A DNA stretch of 64,000 nt from Protonemura montana (lineage: Eukaryota > Arthropoda > Insecta > Plecoptera > Nemouridae): the NCBI GenBank assembly GCA_947568835.1, contig OX387603.1, positions 28,730,651-28,794,650 on the forward strand, given 5' to 3'. The notes under the pieces were generated by a model that was given only the letters and a program-made list of their open reading frames with translations, ran no database searches and had not been told where the DNA came from. A program made the position numbers and the translations under genes. Positions 866 to 59,525 of this stretch are shown here, in pieces; the first letter of the stretch is position 1; each line of letters opens with the position of its first letter.

Positions 866-3800
866 TTATCTTCGTCGGTCGTTGCTCGATGTAGACTTGC
901 TTGAACTTGAACGCGACGAAGTGGAACGACTGGATCTAAAACCAAACTTGGTGAAAATATTTTCATAATCATTGATTGTCTGACTTTCAATAGAAGCTGT
1001 TTATCAAGTCTATCATTGATTGTCTGACTTTCAATAGAAGCTGTTTATCAAGTCTATCATTGATTGTCTGACTTTCAATAGAAGCTGTTTATCAAGTCTA
1101 TCATTGATTGTCTGACTTTCAATAGAAGCTGTTTATCAAGTCTATCATTGATTGTCTGACTTTCAATAGAAGCTGTTTATCAAGTCTATCATTGATTGTC
1201 TGACTTTCAATAGAAGCTGTTTATCAAGTCTATCATTGATTGTCTGACTTTCAATAGAAGCTGTTTATCAAGTCTATCATTGATTGTCTGACTTTCAATA
1301 GAAGCTGTTTATCAAGTCTATCATTGATTGTCTGACTTTCAATAGAAGCTGTTTATCAAGTCTATCATTGATTGTCTGACTTTCAATAGAAGCTGTTTAT
1401 CAAGTCTATCATTGATTGTCTGACTTTCAATAGAAGCTGTTTATCAAGTCTATCATTGATTGTCTGACTTTCAATAGAAGCTGTTTATCAAGTCTATCAT
1501 TGATTGTCTGACTTTCAATAGAAGCTGTTTATCAAGTCTATCATTGATTGTCTGACTTTCAATAGAAGCTGTTTATCAAGTCTATCATTGATTGTCTGAC
1601 TTTCAATAGAAGCTGTTTATCAAGTCTATCATTGATTGTCTGACTTTCAATAGAAGCTGTTTATCAAGTCTATCATTGATTGTCTGACTTTCATTAGAAG
1701 CTGTTTATCAAGTCTATCATTGATTGTCTGACTTTCATTAGAAGCTGTTTATCAAGTCTATCATTGATTGTCTGACTTTCAATAGAAGCTGTTTATCAAG
1801 TCTATCATTGATTGTCTGACTTTCAATAGAAGCTGTTTATCAAGTCTATCATTGATTGTCTGACTTTCAATAGAAGCTGTTTATCAAGTCTATCATTGAT
1901 TGTCTGACTTTCAATAGAAGCTGTTTATCAAGTCTATCATTGATTGTCTGACTTTCAATAGAAGCTGTTTATCAAGTCTATCATTGATTGTCTGACTTTC
2001 AATAGAAGCTGTTTATCAAGTCTATCATTGATTGTCTGACTTTCAATAGAAGCTGTTTATCAAGTCTATCATTGATTGTCTGACTTTCAATAGAAGCTGT
2101 TTATCAAGTCTATCATTGATTGTCTGACTTTCAATAGAAGCTGTTTATCAAGCCTATCATTGATTGTCTGACTTTCATTAGAAGCTGTTTATCAAGTCTA
2201 TCATTGATTGTCTGACTTTCAATAGAAGCTGTTTATCAAGCCTATCATTGATTGTCTGACTTTCAATAGAAGCTGTTTATCAAGTCTATCATTGATTGTC
2301 AGACTTTCAATAGAAGCTGTTTATCAAGTCTATCATTGATTGTCTGACTTTCAATAGAAGCTGTTTATCAAGTCTATCATTGATTGTCTGACTTTCAATA
2401 GAAGCTGTTTATCAAGTCTATCATTGATTGTCTGACTTTCAATAGAAGCTGTTTATCAAGTCTATCATTGATTGTCTGACTTTCAATAGAAGCTGTTTAT
2501 CAAGTCTATCATTGATTGTCTGACTTTCATTAGAAGCTGTTTATCAAGTCTATCATTGATTGTCTGACTTTCAATAGAAGCTGTTTATCAAGTCTATCAT
2601 TGATTGTCTGACTTTCAATAGAAGCTGTTTATCAAGCCTATCATTGATTGTCTGACTTTCATTAGAAGCTGTTTATCAAGTCTATCATTGATTGTCTGAC
2701 TTTCAATAGAAGCTGTTTATCAAGTCTATCATTGATTGTCTGACTTTCAATAGAAGCTGTTTATCAAGTCTATCATTGATTGTCTGACTTTCAATAGAAG
2801 CTGTTTATCAAGTCTATCATTGATTGTCTGACTTTCAATAGAAGCTGTTTATCAAGTCTATCATTGATTGTCTGACTTTCAATAGAAGCTGTTTATCAAG
2901 TCTATCATTGATTGTCTGACTTTCAATAGAAGCTGTTTATCAAGTCTATCATTGATTGTCTGACTTTCAATAGAAGCTGTTTATCAAGTCTATCATTGAT
3001 TGTCTGACTTTCAATAGAAGCTGTTTATCAAGTCTATCATTGATTGTCTGACTTTCAATAGAAGCTGTTTATCAAGTCTATCATTGATTGTCTGACTTTC
3101 AATAGAAGCTGTTTATCAAGTCTATCATTGATTGTCTGACTTTCAATAGAAGCTGTTTATCAAGTCTATCATTGATTGTCTGACTTTCAATAGAAGCTGT
3201 TTATCAAGTCTATCATTGATTGTCTGACTTTCAATAGAAGCTGTTTATCAAGTCTATCATTGATTGTCTGACTTTCAATAGAAGCTGTTTATCAAGTCTA
3301 TCATTGATTGTCTGACTTTCAATAGAAGCTGTTTATCAAGTCTATCATTGATTGTCTGACTTTCAATAGAAGCTGTTTATCAAGTCTATCATTGATTGTC
3401 TGACTTTCAATAGAAGCTGTTTATCAAGTCTATCATTGATTGTCTGACTTTCAATAGAAGCTGTTTATCAAGTCTATCATTGATTGTCTGACTTTCAATA
3501 GAAGCTGTTTATCAAGTCTATCATTGATTGTCTGACTTTCAATAGAAGCTGTTTATCAAGTCTATCATTGATTGTCTGACTTTCAATAGAAGCTGTTTAT
3601 CAAGTCTATCATTGATTGTCTGACTTTCAATAGAAGCTGTTTATCAAGTCTATCATTGATTGTCTGACTTTCAATAGAAGCTGTTTATCAAGTCTATCAT
3701 TGATTGTCTGACTTTCATTAGAAGCTGTTTATCAAGTCTATCATTGATTGTCTGACTTTCATTAGAAGCTGTTTATCAAGTCTATCATTGATTGTCTGAC

Positions 3801-6800
3801 TTTCAATAGAAGCTGTTTATCAAGTCTATCATTGATTGTCTGACTTTCAATAGAAGCTGTTTATCAAGTCTATCATTGATTGTCTGACTTTCAATAGAAG
3901 CTGTTTATCAAGTCTATCATTGATTGTCTGACTTTCAATAGAAGCTGTTTATCAAGTCTATCATTGATTGTCTGACTTTCAATAGAAGCTGTTTATCAAG
4001 TCTATCATTGATTGTCTGACTTTCAATAGAAGCTGTTTATCAAGTCTATCATTGATTGTCTGACTTTCAATAGAAGCTGTTTATCAAGTCTATCATTGAT
4101 TGTCTGACTTTCAATAGAAGCTGTTTATCAAGTCTATCATTGATTGTCTGACTCTCAATAGAAGCTGTTTATCAAGTCTATCATTGATTGTCTGACTTTC
4201 AATAGAAGCTGTTTATCAAGTCTATCATTGATTGTCTGACTTTCAATAGAAGCTGTTTATCAAGTCTATCATTGATTGTCTGACTTTCAATAGAAGCTGT
4301 TTATCAAGTCTATCATTGATTGTCTGACTTTCAATAGAAGCTGTTTATCAAGTCTATCATTGATTGTCTGACTTTCAATAGAAGCTGTTTATCAAGTCTA
4401 TCATTGATTGTCTGACTTTCAATAGAAGCTGTTTATCAAGTCTATCATTGATTGTCTGACTTTCAATAGAAGCTGTTTATCAAGTCTATCATTGATTGTC
4501 TGACTTTCAATAGAAGCTGTTTATCAAGTCTATCATTGATTGTCTGACTTTCAATAGAAGCTGTTTATCAAGTCTATCATTGATTGTCTGACTTTCATTA
4601 GAAGCTGTTTATCAAGCCTATCATTGATTGTCTGACTTTCAATAGAAGCTGTTTATCAAGTCTATCATTGATTGTCTGACTTTCAATAGAAGCTGTTTAT
4701 CAAGTCTATCATTGATTGTCTGACTTTCATTAGAAGCTGTTTATCAAGTCTATCATTGATTGTCTGACTTTCAATAGAAGCTGTTTATCAAGTCTATCAT
4801 TGATTGTCTGACTTTCAATAGAAGCTGTTTATCAAGTCTATCATTGATTGTCTGACTTTCAATAGAAGCTGTTTATCAAGTCTATCATTGATTGTCTGAC
4901 TTTCAATAGAAGCTGTTTATCAAGTCTATCATTGATTGTCTGACTTTCAATAGAAGCTGTTTATCAAGTCTATCATTGATTGTCTGACTTTCAATAGAAG
5001 CTGTTTATCAAGTCTATCATTGATTGTCTGACTTTCAATAGAAGCTGTTTATCAAGTCTATCATTGATTGTCTGACTTTCAATAGAAGCTGTTTATCAAG
5101 TCTATCATTGATTGTCTGACTTTCAATAGAAGCTGTTTATCAAGTCTATCATTGATTGTCTGACTTTCAATAGAAGCTGTTTATCAAGTCTATCATTGAT
5201 TGTCTGACTTTCAATAGAAGCTGTTTATCAAGTCTATCATTGATTGTCTGACTTTCAATAGAAGCTGTTTATCAAGTCTATCATTGATTGTCTGACTTTC
5301 AATAGAAGCTGTTTATCAAGTCTATCATTGATTGTCTGACTTTCAATAGAAGCTGTTTATCAAGTCTATCATTGATTGTCTGACTTTCAATAGAAGCTGT
5401 TTATCAAGTCTATCATTGATTGTCTGACTTTCAATAGAAGCTGTTTATCAAGTCTATCATTGATTGTCTGACTTTCAATAGAAGCTGTTTATCAAGTCTA
5501 TCATTGATTGTCTGACTTTCAATAGAAGCTGTTTATCAAGTCTATCATTGATTGTCTGACTTTCAATAGAAGCTGTTTATCAAGTCTATCATTGATTGTC
5601 TGACTTTCAATAGAAGCTGTTTATCAAGTCTATCATTGATTGTCTGACTTTCAATAGAAGCTGTTTATCAAGTCTATCATTGATTGTCTGACTTTCAATA
5701 GAAGCTGTTTATCAAGTCTATCATTGATTGTCTGACTTTCAATAGAAGCTGTTTATCAAGTCTATCATTGATTGTCTGACTTTCAATAGAAGCTGTTTAT
5801 CAAGTCTATCATTGATTGTCTGACTTTCAATAGAAGCTGTTTATCAAGTCTATCATTGATTGTCTGACTTTCAATAGAAGCTGTTTATCAAGTCTATCAT
5901 TGATTGTCTGACTTTCAATAGAAGCTGTTTATCAAGTCTATCATTGATTGTCTGACTTTCAATAGAAGCTGTTTATCAAGTCTATCATTGATTGTCTGAC
6001 TTTCAATAGAAGCTGTTTATCAAGCCTATCATTGATTGCCTGACTTTCAATAGAAGCTGTTTATCAAGTCTATCATTGATTGTCTGACTTTCAATAGAAG
6101 CTGTTTATCAAGTCTATCATTGATTGTCTGACTTTCAATAGAAGCTGTTTATCAAGCCTATCATTGATTGCCTGACTTTCAATAGAAGCTGTTTATCAAG
6201 TCTATCATTGATTGTCAGACTTTCAATAGAAGCTGTTTATCAAGTCTATCATTGATTGTCAGACTTTCAATAGAAGCTGTTTATCAAGTCTATCATTGAT
6301 TGTCTGACTTTCATTAGAAGCTGTTTATCAAGTCTATCATTGATTGTCTGACTTTCAATAGAAGCTGTTTATCAAGTCTATCATTGATTGTCTGACTTTC
6401 AATAGAAGCTGTTTATCAAGTCTATCATTGATTGTCTGACTTTCAATAGAAGCTGTTTATCAAGTCTATCATTGATTGTCTGACTTTCAATAGAAGCTGT
6501 TTATCAAGTCTATCATTGATTGTCTGACTTTCAATAGAAGCTGTTTATCAAGTCTATCATTGATTGTCTGACTTTCAATAGAAGCTGTTTATCAAGTCTA
6601 TCATTGATTGTCTGACTTTCAATAGAAGCTGTTTATCAAGTCTATCATTGATTGTCTGACTTTCATTAGAAGCTGTTTATCAAGTCTATCATTGATTGTC
6701 TGACTTTCAATAGAAGCTGTTTATCAAGTCTATCATTGATTGTCTGACATTCATTAGAAGCTGTTTATCAAGTCTATCATTGATTGTCTGACTTTCAATA

Positions 6801-9800
6801 GAAGCTGTTTATCAAGTCTATCATTGATTGTCTGACTTTCAATAGAAGCTGTTTATCAAGTCTATCATTGATTGTCTGACTTTCAATAGAAGCTGTTTAT
6901 CAAGTCTATCATTGATTGTCTGACTTTCAATAGAAGCTGTTTATCAAGTCTATCATTGATTGTCTGACTTTCAATAGAAGCTGTTTATCAAGTCTATCAT
7001 TGATTGTCTGACTTTCAATAGAAGCTGTTTATCAAGTCTATCATTGATTGTCTGACTTTCAATAGAAGCTGTTTATCAAGTCTATCATTGATTGTCTGAC
7101 TTTCAATAGAAGCTGTTTATCAAGTCTATCATTGATTGTCTGACTTTCAATAGAAGCTGTTTATCAAGTCTATCATTGATTGTCTGACTTTCAATAGAAG
7201 CTGTTTATCAAGTCTATCATTGATTGTCTGACTTTCAATAGAAGCTGTTTATCAAGTCTATCATTGATTGTCTGACTTTCAATAGAAGCTGTTTATCAAG
7301 TCTATCATTGATTGTCTGACTTTCAATAGAAGCTGTTTATCAAGTCTATCATTGATTGTCTGACTTTCAATAGAAGCTGTTTATCAAGTCTATCATTGAT
7401 TGTCTGACATTCATTAGAAGCTGTTTATCAAGTCTATCATTGATTGTCTGACTTTCAATAGAAGCTGTTTATCAAGTCTATCATTGATTGTCTGACTTTC
7501 AATAGAAGCTGTTTATCAAGTCTATCATTGATTGTCTGACTTTCAATAGAAGCTGTTTATCAAGTCTATCATTGATTGTCTGACTTTCAATAGAAGCTGT
7601 TTATCAAGTCTATCATTGATTGTCTGACTTTCAATAGAAGCTGTTTATCAAGTCTATCATTGATTGTCTGACTTTCAATAGAAGCTGTTTATCAAGTCTA
7701 TCATTGATTGTCTGACTTTCAATAGAAGCTGTTTATCAAGTCTATCATTGATTGTCTGACTTTCAATAGAAGCTGTTTATCAAGTCTATCATTGATTGTC
7801 TGACTTTCAATAGAAGCTGTTTATCAAGTCTATCATTGATTGTCTGACTTTCAATAGAAGCTGTTTATCAAGTCTATCATTGATTGTCTGACTTTCAATA
7901 GAAGCTGTTTATCAAGTCTATCATTGATTGTCTGACTTTCAATAGAAGCTGTTTATCAAGTCTATCATTGATTGTCTGACTTTCAATAGAAGCTGTTTAT
8001 CAAGTCTATCATTGATTGTCTGACTTTCAATAGAAGCTGTTTATCAAGTCTATCATTGATTGTCTGACTTTCAATAGAAGCTGTTTATCAAGTCTATCAT
8101 TGATTGTCTGACTTTCAATAGAAGCTGTTTATCAAGTCTATCATTGATTGTCTGACATTCATTAGAAGCTGTTTATCAAGTCTATCATTGATTGTCTGAC
8201 TTTCAATAGAAGCTGTTTTATCAAGTCTATCATTGATTGTCTGACTTTCAATAGAAGCTGTTTATCAAGTCTATCATTGATTGTCTGACTTTCATTAGAA
8301 GCTGTTTATCAAGTCTATCATTGATTGTCTGACTTTCAATAGAAGCTGTTTATCAAGTCTATCATTGATTGTCTGACTTTCAATAGAAGCTGTTTATCAA
8401 GTCTATCATTGATTGTCAGACTTTCAATAGAAGCTGTTTATCAAGTCTATCATTGATTGTCTGACTTTCAATAGAAGCTGTTTATCAAGTCTATCATTGA
8501 TTGCATGACTTTCAATAGAAGCTGTTTATCAAGTCTATCATTGATTGTCTGACTTTCAATAGAAGCTGTTTATCAAGTCTATCATTGATTGTCTGACTTT
8601 CAATAGAAGCTGTTTATCAAGTCTATCATTGATTGTCTGACTTTCAATAGAAGCTGTTTATCAAGTCTATCATTGATTGTCTGACTTTCAATAGAAGCTG
8701 TTTATCAAGTCTATCATTGATTGTCTGACTTTCAATAGAAGCTGTTTATCAAGTCTATCATTGATTGTCTGACATTCATTAGAAGCTGTTTATCAAGTCT
8801 ATCATTGATTGTCTGACTTTCAATAGAAGCTGTTTATCAAGTCTATCATTGATTGTCTGACTTTCAATAGAAGCTGTTTATCAAGTCTATCATTGATTGT
8901 CTGACTTTCAATAGAAGCTGTTTATCAAGTCTATCATTGATTGTCTGACTTTCAATAGAAGCTGTTTTATCAAGTCTTGAACCAATGAATACAAGGTTTG
9001 TCTTGAGACAATCAACCTCCTTTGTTGTCCAACTATAAACATCAGTAACAATTTCCCTCACCATGAATTCTGACAACAATTGGTCTCAAATATCTAACAA
9101 TTAAATATCACAACAGTAGCCACATTATTCTGTCACTTTTTTTACATGTTTCATTGTTAGCATCTCATCTCATTCCATTTCACTGGAATGGCTTTCAAAA
9201 TAATTATAAGTTGTAATCTTCTTTTTGTGTTCAAAACCAGAAGATATGCTTTTAGGGGCACAGCTCCAACTGGCCGACAAAAAAAACTACCCGACAATTC
9301 GACCGGTCGAAAATAAAACACCCCGAATAGAAAACTGCACGAAAAAAAAAGTGCCCGACAGAAAAAGTCGCCAAAAAATAAACATAAAATGTCAGCTACT
9401 GTACCTAGACATAAACGCCCGCATTTTCAGATACTGGTGAATGTTTTTTCTCAGCATAGTAGCGCAAAGCAGAACCCCCACTGCCGACCAAAAACTATAG
9501 AGGCCCATCCTGCCAATGTACAGTAGCTGCCAAGATTATAGAAGTTTTGTCGGGCAGTTTGTTTTTCGACCGGTCGGATTGTCGGGTGGTTTTTTTGTCG
9601 GCTAGTTGGAACACTCCCGCTTTTGGGCAATATTAATAGTAAAGTTGTTGATACAAATCTCAAAAAAGAGGTAAGGCTCTCAGGGCCCAGACCCGACAGT
9701 GCAAAATGGACATTTTAAGAAAAGCTTACTTCAGTCAATTTCAAACTGTTCTGAACTATGTGGGGTAGCTTTTTGGGGAGCGTCACCAGGAGCCCGGCAA

Positions 9801-14600: not shown

Positions 14601-17600
14601 CATGAACAAACACATGCGTCACATGCACGGCATCGGAAGATTCACCTGCGCTGTTTGTCGAGCAGAGTTTGACAAGCGCCGGGACCTCATCAAGCATCGG
14701 TGAGTTGACAAGATGACGGGCAGTCATCAAACAAACTTTAATAACTCTGAAGTGAAGCAACACTGCACTGAGTTAGGTATTGGATGGGTGACCATCATAC
14801 ACATGACCAGTTCTGTTTGGGAGAGAGGTTGGAGGGATGAAAGTTAGTACAGCAACTTCACTCGCCTTGCTTATCAACTTCTCGACAGCATGGATTTGTG
14901 GAGGAATCCTGTTGTTCGAGTTGTACCGTCCTTCGGAAGGGATGTTAAGCCGGTGGTCCCCTTGGTGCTCTTCGACAGGAGTAGGCTACGTGCCGGCACT
15001 GGGTTTCCCCTCCTCCCTTCTAGGCTAGGTTAGGATTATCATCATCCACTCATTCACCGACGCCATTAGACCATTGCCACATGGCCAGATGTCAAAACAG
15101 TGCGTCGTTAAACAACACTAATAAATAAATATGTGTTTTGTAAGAGTTGTAAGATGAGTTAGAATGGTTCACATGGGAAGCTACCACGGTTCACAGCTCA
15201 AGCTAAGATGGTTTGAAACAAACGAGATGTTTGCTGCGACGATGGAGGAAAGAGCGGCCGTGTAACTTGATGGAGAAAAAGATTGGCATTGTTTTGTGCA
15301 CTTGTCGAGAAATTTCTTGAATTCCAGAGAATTTTTACATTTAGGCTCTAAACCACTTTTTTATTTCTTTGTTATCGATGTTCACTTTAGAATTATTCTA
15401 TCTCTAACAATGACAAATTCAACACTAAATTAACAAAAATAATTTGAAATTGGTTTTGAATGCTGAGTAAAGGACAACGTTGGGAAATTTATTTGTTCTT
15501 CACTTAGCATTCAAAACCCAGTTGAAATAGTTTTTGTTAAAACTAGTGCTAAGTTTACATCAAGTAGATATGAGTCTAAAAACACTAAATTGGTTTAAAA
15601 ATGCTTCAGAAATTTCTGATTTCTGAAATTTCAACTGAATTTTCTTAATGACTGATCCTGTCCTGGCCAATCAGAGATGTTCACTCTGAGAACGGCGTAG
15701 CGGGCGGCGGCTACCGCTGTGAAGACTGCGGTAAAGTGGTTGCGTGGTACAACCACTTCGTAGCTCACCGCAGAACACACAACGTTGTACCAACTCCCGC
15801 GCCAATCGTGCCGGCGCCGCAGGGAAGCTCCACCCACTGCGCGCGGGGAAGCTCCGCCCACTCCTGCGCCGAGTGCAGCAAGACTTTCCGTTCCGCTGCC
15901 GGGCTGCGCGTTCACCAACGAACGCACACCGGAGAGAAACCGTTTGCTTGTCACATCTGCGGTGTAACATTCGCACAGAAGAGAATACAGGTCAGTTCAA
16001 TGACCCTTGCAAGTCACATGCTACACTCAATACAACCATTGAGTGTGCAGATTCTAGGTAGAGACAGAACGTTAATGTTAAACTGTTGAGTGTGCAGGTT
16101 CTAGGTAGAGACAGAACGTTAATGTTAAACTGTTGAGTGTGCAGGTTCTAGGTAGAGACAGAACGTTAATGTTAAACCGTTGAGTGTGCAGGTTCTAGGT
16201 AGAGACAGAACGTTAATGTTAAACCGTTGAGTGTGCAGGTTCTAGGTAGAGACAGAACGTTAATGTTAAACCGTTGAGTGTGCAGGTTCTAGGTAGAGAC
16301 AGAACGTTAATGTTAAACCGTTGAGTGTGCAGGTTCTAGGTAGAGACAGAACGTTAATGTTAAACCGTTGAGTGTGCAGGTTCTAGGTAGAGACGGAACG
16401 TTAATGTTAAACCGTTGAGTGTGCAGGTTCTAGGTGGAGACAGAACGTTAATGTTAAACCGTTGAGTATGCAGGTTCTAGGTAGAGACAGAACGTTAATG
16501 TTAAACCGTTGAGTGTGCAGGTTCTAGGTAGAGACAGAACGTTAATGTTAAACCGTTGAGTGTACAGGTTCTAGGTAGAGACAGAACGTTAATGTTAAAC
16601 CGTTGAGTGTGCAGGTTCTAGGTAGAGACAGAACATTAATGTTAAACCGTTGAGTGTGCAGGTTCTAGGTAGAGACAGAACGTTAATGTTAAACCGTTGA
16701 GTGTGCAGGTTCTAGGTAGAGACAGAACATTAATGTTAAACCGTTGAGTGTGCAGGTTCTAGGTAGAGACAGAACGTTAATGTTAAACCGTTGAGTGTGC
16801 AGGTTCTAGGTGGAGACAGAACGTTAATGTTAAACCGTTGAGTATGCAGGTTCTAGGTAGAGACAGAACGTTAATGTTAAACCGTTGAGTGTGCAGGTTC
16901 TAGGTAGAGACAGAACGTTAATGTTAAACCGTTGAGTGTACAGGTTCTAGGTAGAGACAGAACGTTAATGTTAAACCGTTGAGTGTGCAGGATCTAGGTA
17001 GAGACAGAACATTAATGTTACACCGTTGAGTATGCAGGTTCTAGGTAGAGACAGAACGTTAATGTTAAACCGTTGAGTGTGCAGGTTCTAGGTAGAGACA
17101 GAACGTTAATGTTAAACCGTTGAGTGTGCAGGTTCTAGGTAGAGACAGAACATTAATGTTAAACCGTTGAGTGTGCAGGTTCTAGGTAGAGACAGAACGT
17201 TGATGTTAAACCGTTGAGTGTGCAGGTTCTAGGTTGAGACAGAACGTTAATGTTTAACTGTTAAGTGTGCAGGTTCTAGGTAGAGACAGAACGTCAATGT
17301 TAAACCGTTGAGTGTGCAGGTTCTAGGTGGAGACAGAACGTTAATGTTAAACCGTTGAGTGTGCAGGTTCTAGGTAGAGACAGAACGTTAATGTTAAACC
17401 GTTGAGTGTGCAGGTTCTAGGTAGAGACAGAACGTTAATGTTAAACCGTTGAGTGTGCAGGTTCTAGGTAGAGACAGAACGTTGATGTTAAACCGTTGAG
17501 TGTGCAGGTTCTAGGTTGAGACAGAACGTTAATGTTAAACTGTTAAGTGTGCAGGTTCTAGGTAGAGACAGAACGTTAATGTTAAACCGTTGAGTGTGCA

Positions 17601-20600
17601 GGTTCTAGGTAGAGACAGAACGTTAATGTTAAACCGTTGAGTGTGCAGGTTCTAGGTAGAGACAGAACGTTAATGTTAAACCGTTGAGTGTGCAGGTTCT
17701 AGGTAGAGACAGAACGTTAATGTTAAACCGTTGAGTGTGCAGGTTCTAGGTAGAGATGGAACGTTAATGTTAAACCGTTGAGTGTGCAGGTTCTAGGTGG
17801 AGACAGAACGTTAATGTTAAACCGTTGAGTATGCAGGTTCTAGGTAGAGACAGAACGTTAATGTTAAACCGTTGAGTGTGCAGGTTCTAGGTAGAGACAG
17901 AACGTTAATGTTAAACCGTTGAGTGTACAGGTTCTAGGTAGAGACAGAACGTTAATGTTAAACCGTTGAGTGTGCAGGTTCTAGGTAGAGACAGAACATT
18001 AATGTTAAACCGTTGAGTGTGCAGGTTCTAGGTAGAGACAGAACGTTAATGTTAAACCGTTGAGTGTGCTGGTTCAAGGTAGAGACGGAACGTTTATGTT
18101 AAACCGTTGAGTGTGCAGGTTCTAGGTGGAGACAGAACGTTAATGTTAAACCGTTGAGTATGCAGGTTCTAGGTAGAGACAGAACGTTAATGTTAAACCG
18201 TTGAGTGTGCAGGTTCTAGGTAGAGACAGAACGTTAATGTTAAACCGTTGAGTGTACAGGTTCTAGGTAGAGACAGAACGTTAATGTTAAACCGTTGAGT
18301 GTGCAGGATCTAGGTAGAGACAGAACATTAATGTTAAACCGTTGAGTGTGCAGGTTCTAGGTAGAGACAGAACGTTAATGTTAAACCGTTGAGTGTGCAG
18401 GTTCTAGGTAGAGACAGAACGTTAATGTTAAACCGTTGAGTGTGCAGGTTCTAGGTAGAGACAGAACGTTAATGTTAAACCGTTGAGTGTGCAGGTTCTA
18501 GGTAGAGACAGAACGTTGATGTTAAACCGTTGAGTGTGCAGGTTCTAGGTTGAGACAGAACGTTAATGTTAAACTGTTAAGTGTGCAGGTTCTAGGTAGA
18601 GACAGAACGTCAATGTTAAACCGTTGAGTGTGCAGGTTCTAGGTGGAGACAGAACGTTAATGTTAAACCGTTGAGTGTGCAGGTTCTAGGTAGAGACAGA
18701 ACGTTAATGTTAAACCGTTGAGTGTGCAGGTTCTAGGTAGAGACAGAACGTTAATGTTAAACCGTTGAGTGTGCAGCTTCTAGGTAGGGACAGAACATTA
18801 ATGTTAAACCGTTGAGTGTGCAGGTTCTAGGTGGAGACAGAACGTTAATGTTAAACCGTTGAGTGTGCGGGTTCTAGGTAGAGACAGAACGTTAATGTTA
18901 AACCGTTGAGTGTGCAGGTTCTAGGTGGAGACAGAACGTTAATGTTAAACCGTTGAGTATGCAGGTTCTAGGTAGAGACAGAACGTTAATGTTAAACCGT
19001 TGAGTGTGCAGGTTCTAGGTGGAGACAGAACGTTAATGTTAAACCGTTGAGTATGCAGGTTCTAGGTAGAGACAGAACGTTAATGTTAAACCGTTGAGTG
19101 TGCAGGTTCTAGGTAGAGACAGAACGTTAATGTTAAACCGTTGAGTGTACAGGTTCTAGGTAGAGACAGAACGTTAATGTTAAACCGTTGAGTGTGCAGG
19201 ATCTAGGTAGAGACAGAACATTAATGTTAAACCGTTGAGTGTGCAGGTTCTAGGTAGAGACAGAACGTTAATGTTAAACCGTTGAGTGTGCAGGTTCTAG
19301 GTAGAGACAGAACGTTAATGTTAAACCGTTGAGTGTGCAGGTTCTAGGTAGAGACAGAACGTTAATGTTAAACCGTTGAGTGTGCAGGTTCTAGGTAGAG
19401 ACAGAACGTTGATGTTAAACCGTTGAGTGTGCAGGTTCTAGGTTGAGACAGAACGTTAATGTTAAACCGTTGAGTGTGCAGGTTCTAGGTAGAGACAGAA
19501 TGTTAATGTTAAACCGTTGAGTGTGCAGGTTCTAGGTAGAGACAGAACGTTAATGTTAAACCGTTGAGTGTGCAGGTTCTAGGTAGAGACAGAACGTTAA
19601 TGTTAAACCGTTGAGTGTGCAGGTTCTAGGTAGAGACAGAACGTTAATGTTAAACCGTTGAGTGTGCAGGTTCTAGGTAGAGACAGAACGTTAATGTTAA
19701 ACCGTTGAGTTTGCAGGTTCTAGGTAGAGACAGAACGTTAATGTTAAACTGTTAAGTGTGCAGGTTCTAGGTAGAGACAGAACGTCAATGTTAAACCGTT
19801 GAGTGTGCAGGTTCTAGGTGGAGACAGAACGTTAATGTTAAACCGTTGAGTGTGCAGGTTCTAGGTAGAGACAGAACGTTAATGTTAAACCGTTGAGTGT
19901 GCAGGTTCTAGGTAGAGACAGAACGTTAATGTTAAACCGTTGAGTGTGCAGCTTCTAGGTAGGGACAGAACATTAATGTTAAACCGTTGAGTGTGCAGGT
20001 TCTAGGTGGAGACAGAACGTTAATGTTAAACCGTTGAGTGTGCAGGTTCTAGGTAGAGACAGAACGTTAATGTTAAACCGTTGAGTGTGCGGGTTCTAGG
20101 TAGAGACAGAACGTTAATGTTAAACCGTTGAGTGTGCGGGTTCTAGGTAGAGACAGAACGTTAATGTTACAGTCTCTGCGTGAAAGATGGTCGCCAAATG
20201 ATTACTTGACCGACAAAAATGCAGAGTACCGGAACATCACGTTAAGTGGAGCCACTGTCGTATGAATTTTAATTTCGATATTACCAGGGATTTATCATTT
20301 CAAAAATAGTTCTGTGACAAAATATTGACCTGACAAAAACTATTTGAACTCGGTTTTTCCACACATGTATTTGGTTAGATAGAAAATAAAGCTAATTTGT
20401 TTTGGATTATTTAGATGAAATCTTTTTTAAATTGCAAATGCTTGGAATGCTTGGAATACTTTACTATTATCAACATATTAACCGGCTCAAAAATTGATGC
20501 CTAAACGGTTTGGGCATCAATTTCTGAGACATCACTACAAGTTACCAAAATTACGAATTTATTAGTTGAATTGTAGCAGGCGCGTGTGGTCAGGGCATGC

Positions 20601-23600
20601 AGGGCATGGGCCGCATACCCTGACCAAATCACCAAGTTGGTTATGTTTATGTTGTTTTGATATTTACGATAATTATTTACAAACTTGGCGGGGAAAAAAG
20701 AATCAGACTGATGTTTTCAGTTTTTCGATGTTCTCACTTGCTCCCTCTCCTCTAGCTCTAGCCACGTAAGCTACGGCCCCGGTAGCTTCTAGCTATCGGC
20801 AGCAGTATTCTGTGAGATGATTTGAATAACTTCCCGCTCTTGCTTAGATTTCCTCTGGCGCCACGAGGCAGCTCGCTGCAGTCAATCAGTCATTGGCCGG
20901 CGCTGTTTTGGGTAGAATCACGTGGGGGACAATAACATTGCCCTGCAGCGTCCATATATATGAATATATATAATTTATTTTATTTTAAGAGCATACCTAA
21001 GTTCTAGCCCCGCCACACGCCACTAAATATTAGTACAAATTACAAGGTACAAATTACGAAACGTTGGGAAATTCAGTTGTTCTTTACTTAGCATTGAAAA
21101 CCCAGTTGAAATAGTTTTTGTTAAAACTAGTGCTAAGTTTACATCAAGTAGACATGAGTCTAACAACCATCTTATTTTTGAGACGGTTCTAGTGTTGATA
21201 ATAATAAAATACCCCGCGCATTGCAAACGTTTGCAATTTAAATATGATTTCATCTAAATATACACAATAGTTTTTGCTGCAAATTTGTGCTTATTCTTTC
21301 TAGAATTGTATTTATTTAAAGTAATGAGTATCTAAACCAAGCATAGTCCACGTAGCCACCTGCTAGATCTTGTGACACTTTGAAACGTAAGCTTTTGTTG
21401 AGGTTATGTTAGTGATTGCCTCGTACTTTTCACATTCCCTCGTATTTACAGTGAAACATGCACCAAGTTGAATGCTGTTATTTCAGTGCATGTTGAATGT
21501 ATTGATTGCATCTGCATCTGGATGTGTTTTTATTTCTCTCATTTGTTTCTGTAGTCGCCAGGCTCCGCATGAACAGTGTTTGCTTGCAACAATGCTTTGT
21601 CATCCGAACTCTTCACAATGTGAGTACAACTTGTATTTTCAATCGTACAATTGTTTCATGCTTTGATTGATTAGTTGATTGATTAGTTGATTGACTGACA
21701 CAATCTTTTGACATCTTGCCATGAGGCACTGGTCTAATGGCGTCGGTGAATGACTGGATGATGATGAACCTAACGTAGCCTAGAAGGGAGGAGGCGAAAC
21801 CCGGTGCCGGCACGTAGCCTACTCCTGTCGAAGAGCACCAAGGGGACCACCGGCTTAACATCCCTTCCGAAGGACAGTACAACGTGAACAACAGGATTCC
21901 TCCACAAATCCATGCTGTCGAGAGGTTGATAAGCAAGGCGAGTGAAGTTGCTGTACTAACTTTCATCCCTCCAACCTCTCTCCCGAACAGAACTGGTCAC
22001 CCATCCAATACCTGACCCAGCACAGTGTTGCTTAACTTCATCCCTCCAACCTCTCTCCCAAACAGAACTGGTCATGTGTATGGGTAACACATTCAATACC
22101 TGACCCAGCGCAGTGTTGCTTAACTTTTATCCCTCCAACCTCTCTCCCAAACAGAACTGGTCATGTGTATGATGGTCACCCATCCAATACCTGACCCAGC
22201 GCAGTGTTGCTTAACTTTCATCCCTCCAACCTCTCTCACGAACAGAACTGGTCATGTGTATGATGGTCACCCATCCAATACCTGACCCAGCGCAGTGTTG
22301 CTTAACTTCCCCTTGTTTCTAGGTAGATCATATGAACAAGCATACTGGTGCTCGTCCCTACCGTTGCCCGAGCTGTCCCGAGACATTCTCCAACTACATA
22401 ACGTTCAACGTGCACAAGCGTACGCGGCACAACGCTACGCCAGAGTTTGCATGCGACGTCTGCGGAGCTGGCTTCGTGTGGAAGTCCAACCTTGAATCAC
22501 ATCTACGGTGAGATTTGCACCCAAAGCGGGAATATATTAACATTGTGAATGTTGAAGACACTTTGTGACCTGCCAACAAAATGGTTTGTGTTTTTATTAT
22601 TATGATCACGTGTCAAAAATTGATGCTCAAAAGGTTTAGGCATTAATTTTTGAGACAGTTAGTGTTCATCATAATAAAATACCTTGCGCGGCATTGCAAG
22701 CATTTGCAATTTAAATAAGATTTCATCTAAATGGTAAGTGTTTTGCTAGAGTCGATACTTATACCCTTCTAACAAACTTGTTTTTTTTGCAATGAAAAAC
22801 TATGTTATCGTTTGGTTTGTTGAAGTGGTTCAGAGCTGTGGGTGAATGTTGTGTTGAGTCCAGGACTTGCTCTGTTGTTATTCACTTGTGGACCTAAAAA
22901 GTTGACGTTTTGTCGGCGTTGTTGTCGACATCTTCAGGACCGCTCGATGCCAAGACTAAACATACCCCACGTAGTCGGAACTGTAGCTAATCTTGCCGGG
23001 AAAGTTTACTGTGGAACGAACTCCCTGCCCTGGTCATGTCCCCCAAGAACGCAAAGGGATTTAGACGCTGATTAAAAGAAAACCAAAGACGGATCAATCC
23101 AAAAGACTAGTCCTGTAAATAACTTGGCTAATTTCATTGTATAACTTCACTGTATTACTAAATTTAATTTAATGTAACACTAACCGTACACCATACAACC
23201 GGCGATCATTATTTAATAGAAATGTACTTTCCTATTACTCTAAGAACTTGCGTTATAATATTAGGTTGTCATGGAATGCCCCCAACAAAGTGCAGTGGAT
23301 GACTTGTCTCACGATGGTTGTTCTTGCAGGTCTCACTCAAGAGAGAAAGTCTACGAATGCAAGGAATGCGACCGCACTTTCACGCATCGCAATTCACTTG
23401 CGTACCACAAGCGCGTCCATGCCGGTAAGCGAACACGTCCAAGTAGCTCAATTGGTTAGAGCAACACCCGCGCCAGGTGGAGATCGGGGTCCAAATAGCT
23501 CAATTGGTTAGAGCAACACCCGTGCCAGGTGGAGATCATGGTCCAAGTAGCTCAATTGGTTAGAGCAACACCTGCGACAGGTGGAGATCATGGTCCAAGT

Positions 23601-26600
23601 AGCTCAATTGGTTAGAGCAACACCTGCGACAGGTGGAGATCATGGTCCAAGTAGCTCAATTGGTTAGAGCAACACCCGCGCCAGGTGGAGATCTGGGTTC
23701 AAATAGCTCAATTGGTTAGAGCAACACCCGCGCCAGGTGGAGATCGGGGTCCAAGTAGCTCAATTGGTTAGAGCAACACCCGCGCCAGGTGGAGATCATG
23801 GTCCAAGTAGCTCAATTGGTTAGAGCAACACCCGCGCCAGGTGGAGATCTGGGTTCAAATAGCTCAATTGGTTAGAGCAACACCCACGCCAGGTGGAGAT
23901 CGGGGTCCAAGTAGCTCAATTGGTTAGAGCAACACCTGCGACAGGTGGAGATCGGGGTCCAAGTAGCTCAATTAGTTAGAGCAACACCCGCGACAGGTGG
24001 AGATCGGGATCCAAGTAGCTCAATTGGTTAGAGCAACACCCGCGACAGGTGGAGATCGGGGTCCAAGTAGCTCAATTGGTTAGAGCAACACCTGCGACAG
24101 GTGGAGATCGGGGTCCAAGTAGCTCAATTAGTTAGAGCAACACCCGCGACAGGTGGAGATCGGGATCCAAGTAGCTCAATTGGTTAGAGCAACACCCGCG
24201 ACAGGTGGAGATCGGGGTCCAAGTAGCTCAATTGGTTAGAGCAACACCCGCGACAGGTGGAGATCGGGGTCCAAGTAGATCAATTGGTTAGAGCAACACC
24301 TGCGACAGGTGGAGATCGGGGTCCAAGTTGCTCAATTGGTTAGAGCAACACCCGCGCCAGGTGGAGATCATGGTCCAAGTAGCTCAATTGGTTAGAGCAA
24401 CACCCGCGCCAGGTGGAGATCTGGGTTCAAATAGCTCAATTGGTTAGAGCAACACCCACGCCAGGTGGAGATCGGGGTCCAAGTAGCTCAATTGGTTAGA
24501 GCAACACCTGCGACAGGTGGAGATCGGGGTCCAAGTAGCTCAATTAGTTAGAGCAACACCCGCGACATGTGGAGATCGGGATCCAAGTAGCTCAATTGGT
24601 TAGAGCAACACCCGCGACAGGTGGAGATCGGGGTCCAAGTAGCTCAATTGGTTAGAGCAACACCTGCGACAGGTGGAGATCGGGGTCCAAGTAGCTCAAT
24701 TAGTTAGAGCAACACCCGCGACAGGTGGAGATCGGGATCCAAGTAGCTCAATTGGTTAGAGCAACACCCGCGACAGGTGGAGATCGGGGTCCAAGTAGCT
24801 CAATTGGTTAGAGCAACACCCGCGACAGGTGGAGATCGGGGTCCAAGTAGATCAATTGGTTAGAGCAACACCTGCGACAGGTGGAGATCGGGGTCCAAGT
24901 TGCTCAATTGGTTAGAGCAACACCCGCGACAGGTGGAGATTGGGGTCCAAGTAGCTCAATTGGTTAGAGCAACATCCGCGACAGGTGGAGATCAGGGTCC
25001 AAGTAGCTCAATTGGTTAGAGCAACACCCGGGACAGGTGGATATCGGGGTCCAAGTAGCTCAATTGGTTAGAGCAACACCCGCGACAGGTGGAGATCTGG
25101 GTTCAAATAGCTCAATTGGTTAGAGCAACACCCACGCCAGGTGGAGATCGGGGTCCAAGTAGCTCAATTGGTTAGAGCAACACCTGCGACAGGTGGAGAT
25201 CGGGGTCCAAGTAGCTCAATTAGTTAGAGCAACACCTGCGACAGGTGGAGATCGGGGTCCAAGTAGCTCAATTGGTTAGAGCAACACCCGCGACAGGTGG
25301 AGATCGGGGTCCAAGTAGCTCAATTGGTTAGAGCAACACCCGCGACAGGTGGAGATCGGGGTCCAAGTAGCTCAATTGGTTAGAGCAACACCCGCGACAG
25401 GTGGAGATCGGGGTCCAAGTAGCTCAATTGGTTAGAGCAACACCCGCGACAGGTGGAGATCGGGGTCCAAGTAGCTCAATTGGTTAGAGCAACACCCGCG
25501 ACAGGTGGAGATCGGGGTCCAAGTAGCTCAATTGGTTAGAGCAACACCCGCGACAGTTTGTAAGTTGTTTGTTTTTGCCCGCAGCTTCGTTACCTTTCAA
25601 GTGTGTCGACTGCCGAGAGTCATTTCGTTCGTGCAGCCACCTGGCGGAGCATCGCACAAACAAACACAACGACCAATCACAGGCTTGCGTTGACTGCGAA
25701 GACACGTTCGCGGGACCGGCCTCGTTGGCACGACATCGACGCAACTGCAAGGCAAAGAAAGTTGGAGATGTAGAACAAGTGGGAAGTGTTTACAAACCAG
25801 CTTCCTTGATAGCAGACGATCCAAAGACAATCGAGGAATCTGTTGCTTCTGTCGAAGTGAACTCCAAAGCTAACAAATCTGATAAACCGGCTAAAGTTAG
25901 CGACACTTCTCTTGTAGTTACCGTGGAAACTAAGGTTAAAGATCTCGCTGGTAAAGTTAGCAGCAAAGCAACGAAGAGCGGCAAGAAGTATCCGAAGAAG
26001 AAGTCGACTGCGGTTCGTAACATGGAGGCTACTGTAGCCCGGAAGGAGGCGAGCAAACAAGCGTTGATGATCATGATCACTAAACTAGAGTCAGCCAAAC
26101 GAGCCCGATCTTCCGAGACTGGGGAAAGTGACTCCGCCTCCAAGAAGATCAAGTCCGTCGCAGATTCCCGTCTCCAGAAAAGCTTGAGCGTCGTCAGAGA
26201 AGTTTCCATGCTCATCTCGAAGCCAGAGTTGGGAAGCGCGGCAAAAACTCGGTCACTAGTCTCGGAGATCGAGTCGCAGTCGGATCCGCCTGGCGATGGT
26301 TTCTTGACGGCATTTAATTTAACACCGGCTTCAAAACTAGACTCGATTGCGGCGGCAAGTCAACTTTCCAGTTCAAGATCGAGTGTTTTAACAAAACCTG
26401 ACAGTGCCACTGAGATAATTGAGTTTGATGGATCTTGTAATGATGTTGAAATGTCAAGTGGTTTCGCTGCTACTAACAATTCAGTCGACTCTAACAGTAG
26501 TATCTCAAAAGTATCCACGGCGCTCGTCAGCAAACTGCTGGCACCAAATTCTCTGGAGACGTCGGTGTCGAAGAATGATCTCAAAAGCACAATTCCCGCC

Positions 26601-28867: not shown

Positions 28868-29003
28868 GATTGCAATGGTCAGAGTATTTTATTATTACAA
28901 ACACTTATAACCTCTACAAAATTGGTGCCCAGTCGGGGACTCGAACCCGAATCTAGACACCTGTCGCGGGTGATGCTCTAACCAATTACACCGATTGGAC
29001 ATG
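28868..29003 (-). mobile_element. tRNA-like SINE, near-complete copy
   Basis: Read on the minus strand: head GTCCAATCGGTGTAATTGGT with A box, stem-loop CACCCGCGACAGGTG, B box GGGTTCGAGTCCCC, then body CACCAATTTTGTAGAGGTT and tail AATAATAAAATACTCTGACC, ATTGCAATCATTTG. It serves as the reference copy for the 52-bp and 88-bp arrays. Head and tail order identifies a tRNA-derived SINE rather than a tRNA gene; the anticodon loop lacks the usual T33. Confidence 0.75.
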
Positions 29004-29015
29004 GAGTTAATCCAC

Positions 29016-29083
29016 AACAGGTGGGGATCAGGATTCGAGATCCCAGTTGGACACCCACTTTTCAGAGGTCATTAGTATTCCAA
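29016..29083 (+). mobile_element. Fragment of the same SINE in opposite orientation
   Basis: ACAGGTGGGGATCAGGATTC, GAGATCCCAGTTGGACACCC and TCAGAGGTCATTAGTATT match the B-box-to-body part of the SINE on the plus strand. Together with 28868-29003 it forms a head-to-head inverted pair. Confidence 0.55.
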
Positions 29084-31699: not shown

Positions 31700-31905
31700 G
31701 GTAATTTTATTATTATTATTAACACCCACTCAAAAGTTGATGTCCAAACGGGCATTAATTTGTCCGCGTTTGGACATCAATTTTTGAGAGGGTAGTAGAT
31801 TTGAGTGTGCACACTCAACGGTAGTAGTGTTTTCATAATAATAAAACTACCCCAAACATTGCCAGCGTTTGCAATTTAAATAATATTTCACATAATCAGG
31901 TAAGT
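31700..31905 (+). mobile_element. Palindromic SINE-tail element, long copy
   Basis: A hairpin with 22-bp arms (CTCAAAAGTTGATGTCCAAA / TTTGGACATCAATTTTTGAG) is followed by a perfect 18-bp palindrome TTGAGTGTGCACACTCAA (31801-31818) and the shared tail (CATAATAATAAAACTACC, GCCAGCGTTTGCAATTTAAA). Same family as 20405-20556 and 22611-22737. Confidence 0.6.
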
Positions 31906-33122: not shown

Positions 33123-34237
33123 ACCATCAAAAAAAACGAACCAATTCGTTTAAAAAAAGACGACGTCTTCATTGATTGAGTGTACCAATAGGTACGAAAT
33201 GAAGCCACAATAAACTTTGTAAATAATTGCCAGAACTGGAAACATGTAGCGTTCAAAAGAATTGAAATATACGTAAATGCAGACGTCTATCCCCTCCCTC
33301 CCTCCCCCAGCCCATGCACTTTGAAATTTCAATCCTTGTTGATTGATTGATTTGTGGTGTTTAACGACGCACTGTTTTGACATCTGGTCATGTGGCACTG
33401 GTCAAATGGCGTCGGTGGATGAGTGGATGACGATGAGGGTGATGATGAACCTAACATAGCCTAGAAGGGAAGACGGGAAGCCCGGTGCCGGCACGTATTG
33501 TACTCCTGTCGAAGAGCACCAAGGGGACCACCGGCTTAACGTCCCTTCCGAAGGACGGTACAACGCGAACAACAGGATTCCTCCACAAATCCATGCTGTC
33601 GAGAGGCTGATAAGCAAGGCGAGTGAAGTTGCTGCACTAACTTTCATCCCTCCAACCTCTCTCCCAAACAGAACTGGTCATGTGTATGGTGGTCACCCAT
33701 CCAATACCTGACTCAGCGCAGTGTTGCTTAACTTCGGTGATCCAACGAGAACCGGTGTTTCCAACACGCCAAACCGTTCGGTTTCAATCCTTGTTTCCCG
33801 GGAGTCCATTCTCCCATAAGAGCAGTATTAAATTGCTGGTGATTTGTCAAAGTGCGGTCGTGCACGCACTCCCCGGCCGAGGCAACGTGCTCGTCTACTA
33901 TTTGACTTGGACGAATTGTTAGTTCCATAAGAGCAATGCTAATGGCCATAGCCGAAATCGTAGTCTCGTAAGCGCAAAGTGATTATTACCTTTGGCTATT
34001 GTCCTAATTTATGCATGGGGATGGGGTGACGATATCGTGCGATGGGCTGGGGGAGGGGGGGAGGGAGGGGATAGACGTCTGCATTTACGTATATTTCAAT
34101 TCTTTTGAACACTACATGTTTCCAGTTCTGGCAATTATTTACAAAGTTTATTGTGGCTTCATTTCGTACCTATTGGTACACTCAATCAATGAAGACGTCG
34201 TCTTTTTTTAAACGAATGGGTTCGTCTTTTTGATGGT
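33123..34237. mobile_element. DNA element with about 198-bp terminal inverted repeats, split by a SINE
   Basis: 33123-33320 and 34040-34237 are near-perfect reverse complements (outer ends ACCATCAAAAA and TTTTTGATGGT; inner parts include GACGTCTATCCCCTCCCTCC). The unique centre is under 300 bp once the 5S SINE at 33341-33781 is removed. No transposase is present. The superfamily is unknown and no clean target duplication is visible. Confidence 0.8.
33341..33781 (-). mobile_element. Full-length 5S-rRNA-derived SINE with target-site duplication
   Basis: A 441-bp insertion flanked by an exact 14-bp duplication TTTCAATCCTTGTT (33327-33340 and 33782-33795). On the minus strand it begins CCGAACGGTTTGGCGTGTTG and includes 5S-like segments CCGGTTCTCGTTGGATCACC, GAAGTTAAGCAACACTG and GGATGGGTGACC (box C region). 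It ends in an AATC-type tail. It defines the full-length family member. The duplication length is typical of LINE-mobilised SINEs. Confidence 0.92.
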
Positions 34238-37174: not shown

Positions 37175-37955
37175 GTGCTTGATCGACCGAACGGTTTGGC
37201 GAGTTGGAAACACCAGTTCTCATTAGATCACCAAAGTTAAGCAACACTGTACTGGGTCAGGTATTGGATGGGTGACCATCATACACATGACCAGTTCTGT
37301 TCGGGAGAGAGGTTGGAGAGATGAAAGTTAAGCAACACTGCACTGGGTCAGGTATTGGATGAGTGACTATCATACGCATGACCAGTTCTGTTCGGGAGAG
37401 AGGTTGGAGGGATGAAAGTTAAGCAACACTGCCCTGGGTCAGGTATTGGATGGGTGACCATCATACACATGACCAGTTCTGTTTGGGAGAGAGGTTGGAG
37501 GGATGAAAGTTAAGCAACACTGCGCTGGGTCAGGTATTGGATGGGTGACCATCATACACATGACCAGTTCAGTTCGGGAGACAGGTCGGAGGGATGAAAG
37601 TTAAGCAACACTGCGCTGGGTCAGGTATTGGATGGGTGACCATCATACACATGACCAGTTCTGTTCTGGAGAGTGGTTGGAGGGATGAAAGTTAAGCAAC
37701 ACTGTGCTGGGTCAGGTGTTGGATGGGTGACCATCATACACATGACCAGTTCTGTTCGGGAGAGAGGTTGGAAGGATGAAAGTTAAGCAACACTGAGCTG
37801 GGTCAGGTATTGGATGGGTGACCATCATACATATGACCAGTTCTGTTCGGGAGAGAGGTTGGAGGGATGAAAGTTAGTACATCAACTTAACTCGCCTTGC
37901 TTATCAACCTCTCGACAGCATGGATTTGTGGAGAATTCCTGCTGTTCGAGTTATG
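37175..37955 (+). mobile_element. 5S-derived SINE with head amplified as seven 91-bp units
   Basis: Starts with the intact 5' end (GACCGAACGGTTTGGCGAGT, CACCAGTTCTCATTAGATCA). A 91-bp unit then repeats about seven times (AAGTTAAGCAACACTG ... GGATGGGTGACCATCATACA ... GGAGAGAGGTTGGAGGGATG). The last unit leads into the SINE body, which is cut off after CTGCTGTTCGAGTTATGAAC. Each unit keeps the 5S box-C-like GGATGGGTGACC. Confidence 0.9.
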
Positions 37956-58600: not shown

Positions 58601-59525
58601 TACACATGACCATCATACACATAACCATCATACACATGGCCATCATACACATGACCATCATACACATGACCAGTTCTGTTCGGGAGAGAGGTTGGAGGGA
58701 TGAAAGTTAGTACAGCAACTTCACTCGCCTTGCTTATCAACCTCTCGACAGCATGGATTTGTGGAGGAATCCTGTTGTTCGCGTTGTGCCGTCCTTCGGA
58801 AGGGACGTTAAGCCGGTGTCCCCTTGGTGCTCTTCAACAGAAGTAGGCTACGTGCCGGCACGGGGTTCCCCCTCCTCCCTTCTAGGCTAGGTTAGGTTCA
58901 TCATCATCCAGTTATTTACTGATGCCATAAGCACAATCCCACGGTGCCAGATGTTGAAACAGTGCGTTGTTTTAATCCGAATAATGAAATAATGTTACTG
59001 AAATGTTGAGACTGAAATGTTGAGACTGACCAGTTTGTGAACTTGCTCTGTGAGTGAAGTATCAGGTGTTGCTACTACTTGTGTTGCTACGGTTGCACCA
59101 AACAGCGGCGCCTCCCGACCGAAGAGTGAGCGCTGCGTTAGTTCCACCAGCGCCTGACATCGAGCCGCAGCCTTCAGTGATGCCAACCTCGAGAGAAGAC
59201 GGCACGCGCAGCGCACTCCACGCAATCGATTGAAGTCTCCTGCAAGATGGAGGCAATCCATTATTCATGCTTTTGTTTTTGTGTGTTGAGTATTTGTTTC
59301 TGCTTTGCTTTGATCCAAACTACAGAGCAAGTTACGTGTAATCAACCTAGAAGACCGTGCTTTGAAAGAAAAAATAAAGTCTAATATTTGTAGAACGGTT
59401 CTAAATTTACAAAAATGTTAAGACTTTCAAAATATGTACAAAACGAAATTGCGGAGTTATTTATTAAAACGACGGGAGGATAAAACAGGCAACGAGAAGT
59501 GTAGGTACACAGGGGTGAACATGAC

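Follow-up and report, generated by a model that had tools for sequence, protein, structure and literature searches.

SINE-derived satellites (sSats) have been described in squamate reptiles by Vassetzky et al. 2023 (PMC10702118). As set out there, the tandem unit comes from part of a tRNA-derived SINE, part of the head included, a longer terminal unit continues to the SINE end, and arrays with alternating unit variants occupy thousands of loci in most snakes. The snake unit, 67 nt long, covers the B box together with some of the body, and sSats prefer subtelomeric regions. The same paper judges the published SINE-satellite examples inconclusive. An invertebrate satellite with a SINE-derived segment, PcH-Sat of the limpet Patella caerulea, has a 179-bp unit, is mainly pericentromeric and makes up about 10% of the genome, in all of which it differs from the array reported here; its abstract mentions no nested SINE intermediates (PMC11121367). 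Tandem repeats with tRNA-like parts are also described in amphibians, namely Hy/polIII, OAX/satellite I, Rana/polIII and newt PolIII/TAN (PMC10702118, PMC9659126). Finally, the Helenus and Ajax TRIMs are short non-autonomous retroelements with tRNA- or 5S-derived sequence and a Pol III promoter, bearing LTRs, PBS/PPT and 4–5 bp TSDs (PMC10886601).

We analyzed a 64,000-nt stretch of DNA (hereafter, the window) whose host, unlike the squamate hosts of the sSats in PMC10702118, has a COX1 open under the invertebrate mitochondrial code. This COX1, on contig C34, is open under code 4 as well as code 5, and it may be arthropod-like. TRF delimited an array at 23437–25556 (+) with a period of 52 bp, 40.8 copies and 94% matches, a few bases away from the 23431–25555 array that an earlier note had described as filling an intron. 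It occupies 2,120 bp of a 2,160-bp intron (23425–25584, +) of a C2H2 zinc-finger gene, recognized by splice-site-like ends (GTAAGC, donor-like, at 23425; CAG, the acceptor, at 25582–25584), exon frames and Pfam; the translations of both adjoining exons match the C2H2 zinc-finger family PF00096 (E 2.3e-6 at 23331–23423 and 5.3e-7 at 25587–25760). The unit derives from a SINE head, as the note had claimed: it matches positions 1–52 of a tRNA-like head that belongs to a dispersed element, and this parent element is also present as single-headed copies elsewhere. Within the array, an 11-unit (572 bp) block stands as a tandem pair at 23801–24944 (+) whose copies are identical at 567/572 positions, an in-place multi-unit duplication. 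Neither the element's body nor its upstream segment U was found adjoining the array, and no TSD was seen on inspection by eye. The array's distance to the end of contig C2 is about 1.05 Mb.

The array appears to be a SINE-derived satellite, a kind already known in squamates, with a route of formation that seems close to the reptile one. The derivation from part of a tRNA-derived SINE with part of its head, the longer terminal unit, the thousands of loci and the alternating unit variants all recur here. However, the 52-bp unit begins with the head start and reaches as far as the B box, and the U-linked arrays and exchange hybrids at the unit junction set this system apart from the sSats as described in PMC10702118, the main text of which contains neither the word “microhomology” nor “junction”. 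Unlike the amphibian families as presented in PMC10702118 and PMC9659126, single-, few- and many-headed forms occur within one genome here.

The tRNA-like head, dispersal and variable-length TSDs of the parent element identify it as a probable tRNA-derived SINE-like retroposon. Both ARAGORN and Rfam called a tRNA at 61904–61976, inside a 12-headed copy (61822–62548, −) whose last head is complete and followed by the body and a tail segment. The 73-nt sequence spanning the head and the start of the body adopted a cloverleaf fold (z −2.03; 5/200 shuffles equally good), and A and B boxes were identified in the head by eye against the consensus. Head–body junctions numbered 4,188 genome-wide (36-mer, up to 3 mismatches), and reversed-pattern controls yielded 0. 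Direct repeats scoring 9 or more bounded 23/66 element clusters versus 3/198 mispaired flanks, and these TSD-like repeats varied in length from 9 to 18 bp, in contrast to the 4–5 bp TSDs of the Helenus and Ajax TRIMs (PMC10886601), which the element resembles as a short Pol III-derived retroelement. TSDs of 4–5 bp were not found by this test, in which repeats that short are indistinguishable from chance. Clusters with scored direct repeats included copies with 10, 8 and 3 heads, and three multi-headed copies were flanked by 12–18 bp target-site duplications; such duplications are compatible both with insertion of an already multi-headed element and with later growth of a single-headed copy.

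Inverted tail–body–head arms are common among the copies, as they would be if the element were a foldback-type DNA transposon with tandem repeats in its inverted arms and no retroposon; such transposons are a known source of satellites, and a review table lists Tetris as one of them. Element-part matches revealed three headless foldback copies in the window, at 20414–20530 (tail–body/body), 22592–22727 (body/body–tail) and 31707–31890, the last with a 10-bp TSD (AATCAGGTAA) by TSD scoring. Nonetheless, the TSD-like repeats vary in length, the head is complete, tRNA-like and able to form a cloverleaf, and the ends are unequal in 16 of the 23 scored elements, where one terminus consists of the tail segment and the opposite terminus of the body end (near AATAATAAAA). 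We regard the foldback interpretation as the least probable of those considered. The SINE that the earlier note had placed at 28868–29003 is indeed a diverged single-head family member, with a body/head match at 28885–28985 (−) in which the head starts only from position 14, but the note had not reported a second head, partial and inverted, at the distal end, with which the copy spans 28885–29044 (−). A related element forms an array in another register at 60407–61068 (−); its 88-bp unit, which comprises the head end and the first part of the body, is repeated 6.9 times at 60461–61068, and a tail piece lies at 60407.

One junction prevails among the tandem heads. Head–head junctions of the 52-bp register numbered 14,086 genome-wide (33-mer, up to 3 mismatches; 0 in reversed-pattern controls), and in them the octamer GTTCGAGT of the B box is aligned with GTCCAAGT of the head start, the two matching at 6/8 bases. 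All head-start bases are present in the dominant junction (237/284). The earlier note had instead proposed a fusion at a shared GTCC, which would give GGGTTCGAGTCCAAGTAGC and a 58-bp unit; this pattern, with up to 2 mismatches allowed, occurred once in 258 Mb, although it ended in the TTGG head subtype and left less tolerance for TGG-type cases. The breakpoint is consistent genome-wide, as that note had anticipated, but falls at the octamer and not at GTCC.

With the breakpoint corrected in this way, the model of the earlier note becomes one of recurrent local birth, in which slippage at the match between B box and head start may give rise to an array in any SINE copy. The 6/8 octamer match and the use of the same register in arrays of both head subtypes are in line with this model, as are hybrid octamers in both directions: GTTCGAGT was present in 66 among the first 100 listed of 195 head–head hybrids (counted by eye), and reverse hybrid octamers made up 11 among 21 matches. 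These hybrids uphold the part of the claim that concerns exchange at a built-in short match. Yet offsets 52 and 58 each match at 6/8 bases, offset 58 has the longer exact run, and only offset 52 is used, so a short match is not sufficient for array birth. Moreover, exact matching at the 52 register extends over no more than 3 consecutive bases, which about 5% of the element's breakpoints attain, and the bias toward one head subtype is strong. Recurrent local birth is an unlikely origin of the tRNA-type arrays, even though exact 6-bp repeats do fit the arrays of a second, 5S-derived family described below.

Arrays of heads are nested in many elements. Among sampled runs of at least two heads (n = 29), the body followed 25, segment U preceded 17, and both were present in 16; many of the loci were picked for a head–body junction, which inflates the body-bearing share. 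The longer terminal unit, a complete head plus body, was thus seen in 25/29 runs from partly chosen loci, including the copy at 61822–62548. A terminal body was missing from the window array, from L079 and from the second run of L032, which is cut by the locus edge, and in L060 the final head is complete but no body was scored after it.

The complete head-start sequence in the dominant junction is also what copying from that end would give if heads were duplicated during reverse transcription, the cDNA end, having reached the head start, slipping back to the RNA's B box and the elements thus inserting in multi-headed form; the TSDs bounding multi-headed copies agree with this. However, DNA slippage predicts the same junction, and in the 17/29 runs in which U precedes the first head, the head start was not an RNA end; template jumping with the head start as the RNA 5′ end was set aside on the same ground. 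Furthermore, L110 (7 heads) and L111 (6 heads), in which the head order agrees, changed unit number without reverse transcription. We consider head duplication in reverse transcription highly improbable. L110 and L111 had been candidates for two insertions of one multi-headed master, but their common non-element flanks point to segmental duplication. Likewise, L115 has its upstream flank in common with L033 and its downstream flank with L114. An unsystematic comparison of the loci examined yielded no pair that agreed in head order but differed in flanks.

Multi-headed elements also differ in subtype from single-headed ones. The last head was of the TTGG subtype in 13/19 multi-headed versus 3/35 single-headed elements (Fisher p 9e-6), and GACAGG was present in 16/19 versus 11/35 (p 4e-4). 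In exact genome-wide counts, heads after a head comprised 7,895 of the TTGG versus 653 of the TGG type, whereas heads after segment U comprised 404 and 790, respectively. On contig C1, the only contig for which place was compared, the terminal 3 Mb at either end held 30/30 TTGG heads after U and 51/82 TGG-type heads (18% expected if uniform); this may parallel the subtelomeric preference of sSats (PMC10702118) and means that subtype is confounded with chromosomal place. Units differed at nearly as many positions within arrays (2.50 of 52) as between them (2.87; 287 units, 22 arrays), in line with inheritance from few founders. The nearest-neighbour unit came from the same array in 33% of cases versus 6% in shuffles, indicating some clustering by locus.

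The prevailing subtype and register suggest few founders, their spread and later in-place length change. In this manner, the tRNA-like head of a short retroposon probably gave rise to the array as a satellite. In one or a few founder copies, the head would have been duplicated with the B-box bases GTTCGAGT replaced by the head start GTCCAAGT, creating a 52-bp unit that retains the A box but lacks the tRNA's second half. Multi-headed elements would then have spread through retroposition, presumably of the multi-headed form itself, and through segmental duplication, with unequal exchange or slippage altering the unit number in place. The window array would be a 41-unit descendant, the rest of the element having been lost or never there. 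TGG-type unit arrays exist (653 junctions; for example, L117), and the founder model therefore needs further founding or conversion. The SINE family thus seems only partly “pre-set to become satellites”, as the earlier note had put it, with one head subtype and one register prevailing; the 5S-derived family fits that description better.

The beginnings of satellites are usually visible only afterwards. Here, one assembly holds single-headed, few-headed, many-headed and free-standing forms, and the prevailing junction and exchange hybrids can be counted; one-off founding with spread can therefore be tested against repeated birth at built-in repeats. The two families hint in opposite directions, the tRNA family combining a weak match with strong subtype inheritance and the 5S family showing exact 6-bp matches. 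A broader, tentative possibility is that Pol III-derived retroposons here act as mobile satellite seeds: tRNA- and 5S-derived families would hold arrays of promoter half-units, planted by retroposition and grown at short head repeats, with a variable, inherited unit number. Among the literature titles listed, none evidently matched 5S-derived SINE satellites, which is not proof of their absence.

In the window, a single-copy 5S-derived element lies at 33638–33781 (−), with a 5S match at 33663–33781. A single copy contains exact 6-bp direct repeats 91 and 15 bp apart, the unit lengths of the family's arrays, and the short-repeat mechanism of the earlier note appears to fit this family better than the tRNA family. 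The 91-bp unit is present in about 7 copies in an element at 37186–37900 (+), with the 5S-like start and the body at opposite ends, and in 3.5 copies at 21957–22308 (−). The 15-bp unit, equal in length to the TGACCA spacing in the single element, forms an array of 84.6 copies from 57404 to 58672 (+), the right end of which passes into the body of a 5S-derived element ending at 58709.

The 52-bp array lies at 23437-25556 (TRF, 40.8 copies, consensus unit GTCCAAGTAGCTCAATTGGTTAGAGCAACACCCGCGACAGGTGGAGATCGGG) of the window, which corresponds to C2:28730651-28794650 in a 258-Mb genome of 34 contigs. It is bracketed by a splice donor (GTAAGC) and an acceptor (CAG), C2H2 zinc fingers are readable in both flanking exons, and it accounts for 2,120 of the 2,160 bases of the intron. 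It has 41 heads, the tRNA-like parts of a dispersed element; the longest run in loci fetched from the same genome (L066, which reaches the locus edge) holds at least 33.

For this analysis, the element was divided into an upstream segment (U, 169 bp), a head (H, 64 bp), a body (B, 50 bp), and a tail (T, 47 bp). The head and the start of B together form a 73-nt tRNA-like unit with a cloverleaf fold (z = −2.03), while the 52-mer alone folds no better than its own shuffles (z = −0.06). ARAGORN and Rfam called a tRNA at 61904-61976, the complete head ending the window's second array. Direct repeats scoring ≥9 (length minus three per mismatch, ≤1 mismatch allowed) flanked 23 of 66 element clusters versus 3 of 198 mispaired flanks; these repeats were 9-18 bp long, as in L034 (10 heads, 15 bp), L036 (8 heads, 18 bp with one mismatch), and L027 (3 heads, 12 bp with one mismatch). 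We take the element as a SINE-like retroposon. Inverted pairs of arms make up many of the copies, some of which are headless; foldback copies at 20414-20530, 22592-22727, and 31707-31890 and in many loci consist of inverted tail-and-body arms, some without a head, and often one end shows the tail and the opposite end AATAATAAAA. At L018 1383-1662, a tRNA-family element with a target-site duplication of 12 bp is nested in a 5S-family element.

The full order of a multi-headed copy is U, n truncated 52-bp heads, one complete head, B, and T, the last present or absent. Among 29 runs of at least two heads in the fetched loci and the window, a biased sample in which some runs end at locus edges, B follows 25, U precedes 17, and both are found in 16. 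Loci L009-L038 and L090-L109 were picked by the exact head-body junction, L039-L068 by the head-head junction (five non-overlapping loci used), and L002-L008 through similarity to the window copy; only L069-L088 were random: 60 places were drawn from seven contigs, and the first 20 were used. Three of the 29 runs adjoin neither B nor U: the window array, the second run of L032, which reaches the locus edge, and L079, the sole multi-headed run among the random loci. Genome-wide, at ≤3 mismatches, we counted 4,188 head-body, 14,086 head-head, and 3,102 U-head junctions, with no match for any reversed control; diverged copies escape such pattern counts.

The earlier note had proposed that the unit junction is a fusion at the GTCC common to the B-box end and the SINE start. 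This fusion, 58 bases past the head start, had one match in the genome at ≤2 mismatches and is not the junction in use, although the pattern ended in the TTGG head subtype and was less tolerant of TGG-type cases. At the actual unit of 52, GTTCGAGT, the octamer of the B box, falls opposite GTCCAAGT at the start of the head, with 6 of 8 bases equal and a longest exact run of 3 bases, a run reached by ~5% of breakpoints in the element. Offset 58 likewise gives 6 of 8, with a longer exact run, GTCC. Use of a single register is therefore unexplained by the match alone. Across 284 sampled head-head junctions, aligned ungapped from base 1, GTCCAAGT occupied 237 and GTTCAAGT 26. Hybrid junctions keeping the B-box G ahead of the resumed head numbered 195; several pairs are spaced by 52 bp within a single array, so not every hybrid is an independent event. 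The first 100 listed, counted by eye, comprised 66 GTTCGAGT, 31 GTCCGAGT, and 3 GTCCGAAT. The reverse hybrid, GTCCAAGT in the terminal B box, made up 11 of 21 exact matches, and a single-change form made up 10. Since both hybrid directions are present, exchange within the octamer occurs, and pairing of whole heads could also produce it.

The two head subtypes differ at approximately positions 15-22 (TTGGTTA versus TGGKTYA). The last head was of the TTGG type in 13 of 19 multi-headed versus 3 of 35 single-headed sampled elements (p = 9 × 10−6) and carried GACAGG in 16 of 19 versus 11 of 35 (p = 4 × 10−4); the subtype count omits L040, L047, L054, L060, L066, L089, the window, heads without adjoining B, and single heads truncated past position 12. 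Exact genome-wide counts were 7,895 TTGG and 653 TGG after a head and 404 TTGG and 790 TGG after U, an odds ratio of ~24 in which units of one array are non-independent. In a comparison of 287 units from 22 arrays with ≥5 heads, mean differences were 2.50 per 52 within arrays and 2.87 between arrays, the within-array mean being the larger in 7 of 22. The nearest-neighbour unit came from the same array in 33% of cases versus 6% in shuffles, which counts against a shared pool. Arrays of mixed subtype are present, and L117 consists almost entirely of TGG units. We read these sequence patterns as few founders, which would then have spread with partial local homogenization. Chromosomal place confounds this founder reading of the subtype bias: on C1, the contig for which both sets of U-head junctions are complete, TTGG heads after U lie <3 Mb from an end in 30 of 30 cases, versus 51 of 82 for TGG heads. 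Elements concentrate near the ends of C1.

Unit number also changes within established arrays. Two C1 loci separated by ~1 Mb, L110 and L111, have common flanks beyond the element and identical head order, with 7 and 6 heads, respectively. An 11-unit block at 23801-24372 of the window array recurs at 24373-24944, the two agreeing at 567 of 572 bases. Each case directly indicates that whole units were gained or lost once the array was established. Separately, L115, near the start of C5, matches L033 (near the C1 end) in its upstream flank and L114 (near the C4 end) in its downstream flank, suggesting duplication between chromosome ends.

A 5S-derived dispersed element, with 5S matches at 33663-33781 and 37186-37306, forms 91-bp arrays at 21957-22308 and 37233-37876, within copies at 21957-22308 and 37186-37900. 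Such arrays also occur in several fetched loci, with single copies in others. In one single copy, L038, AAGTTA recurs at a spacing of 91 bp and TGACCA at a spacing of 15 bp, the latter being the period of the array at 57404-58672; the right end of that array passes into the 5S-derived element body, to 58709, and its left end shows no 5S part. An exact run of ≥6 occurs at 0.27% of breakpoints in this element. The kind of mechanism the earlier note had envisaged, array birth at a short match built into the element, is well supported for the 5S-derived family, whose 91- and 15-bp units equal the spacing of exact 6-bp repeats, sought only once the arrays had been seen. A further array, with an 88-bp unit, at 60461-61068, derives from a relative with a tRNA-like head and is built of the end of that head together with body sequence.

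Satellites of this kind are already known: SINE-derived satellites that have nested SINE ends and favour subtelomeric regions have been reported in squamates (PMC10702118), as has a limpet satellite containing a SINE segment (PMC11121367), and reviews give further cases (PMC9659126; PMC12692304). As far as the open-licence papers among the matches listed show, the new features are the host, the half-head unit together with the hybrids at its octamer, and two Pol III-derived families forming arrays in one window. We hold the arrays to be probable by-products, barring evidence of Pol III factor occupancy.

Two other window arrays were noted. The 44-bp array at 968-8977 (182 copies, 99% matches, >8 kb) had no further match within the working set of 272,728 bases, which includes the window and was in large part picked by similarity. 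The 47-bp satellite unit at 16034-20169 had matches at L028, L010, L004, L031, L024, L054, L027, and L009. Finally, COX1 matches of equal score were found at C34:3504-4841, on a small contig, and at C4:5760925-5762262, the latter reflecting either mitochondrial DNA recently copied into the nucleus or a misjoin.
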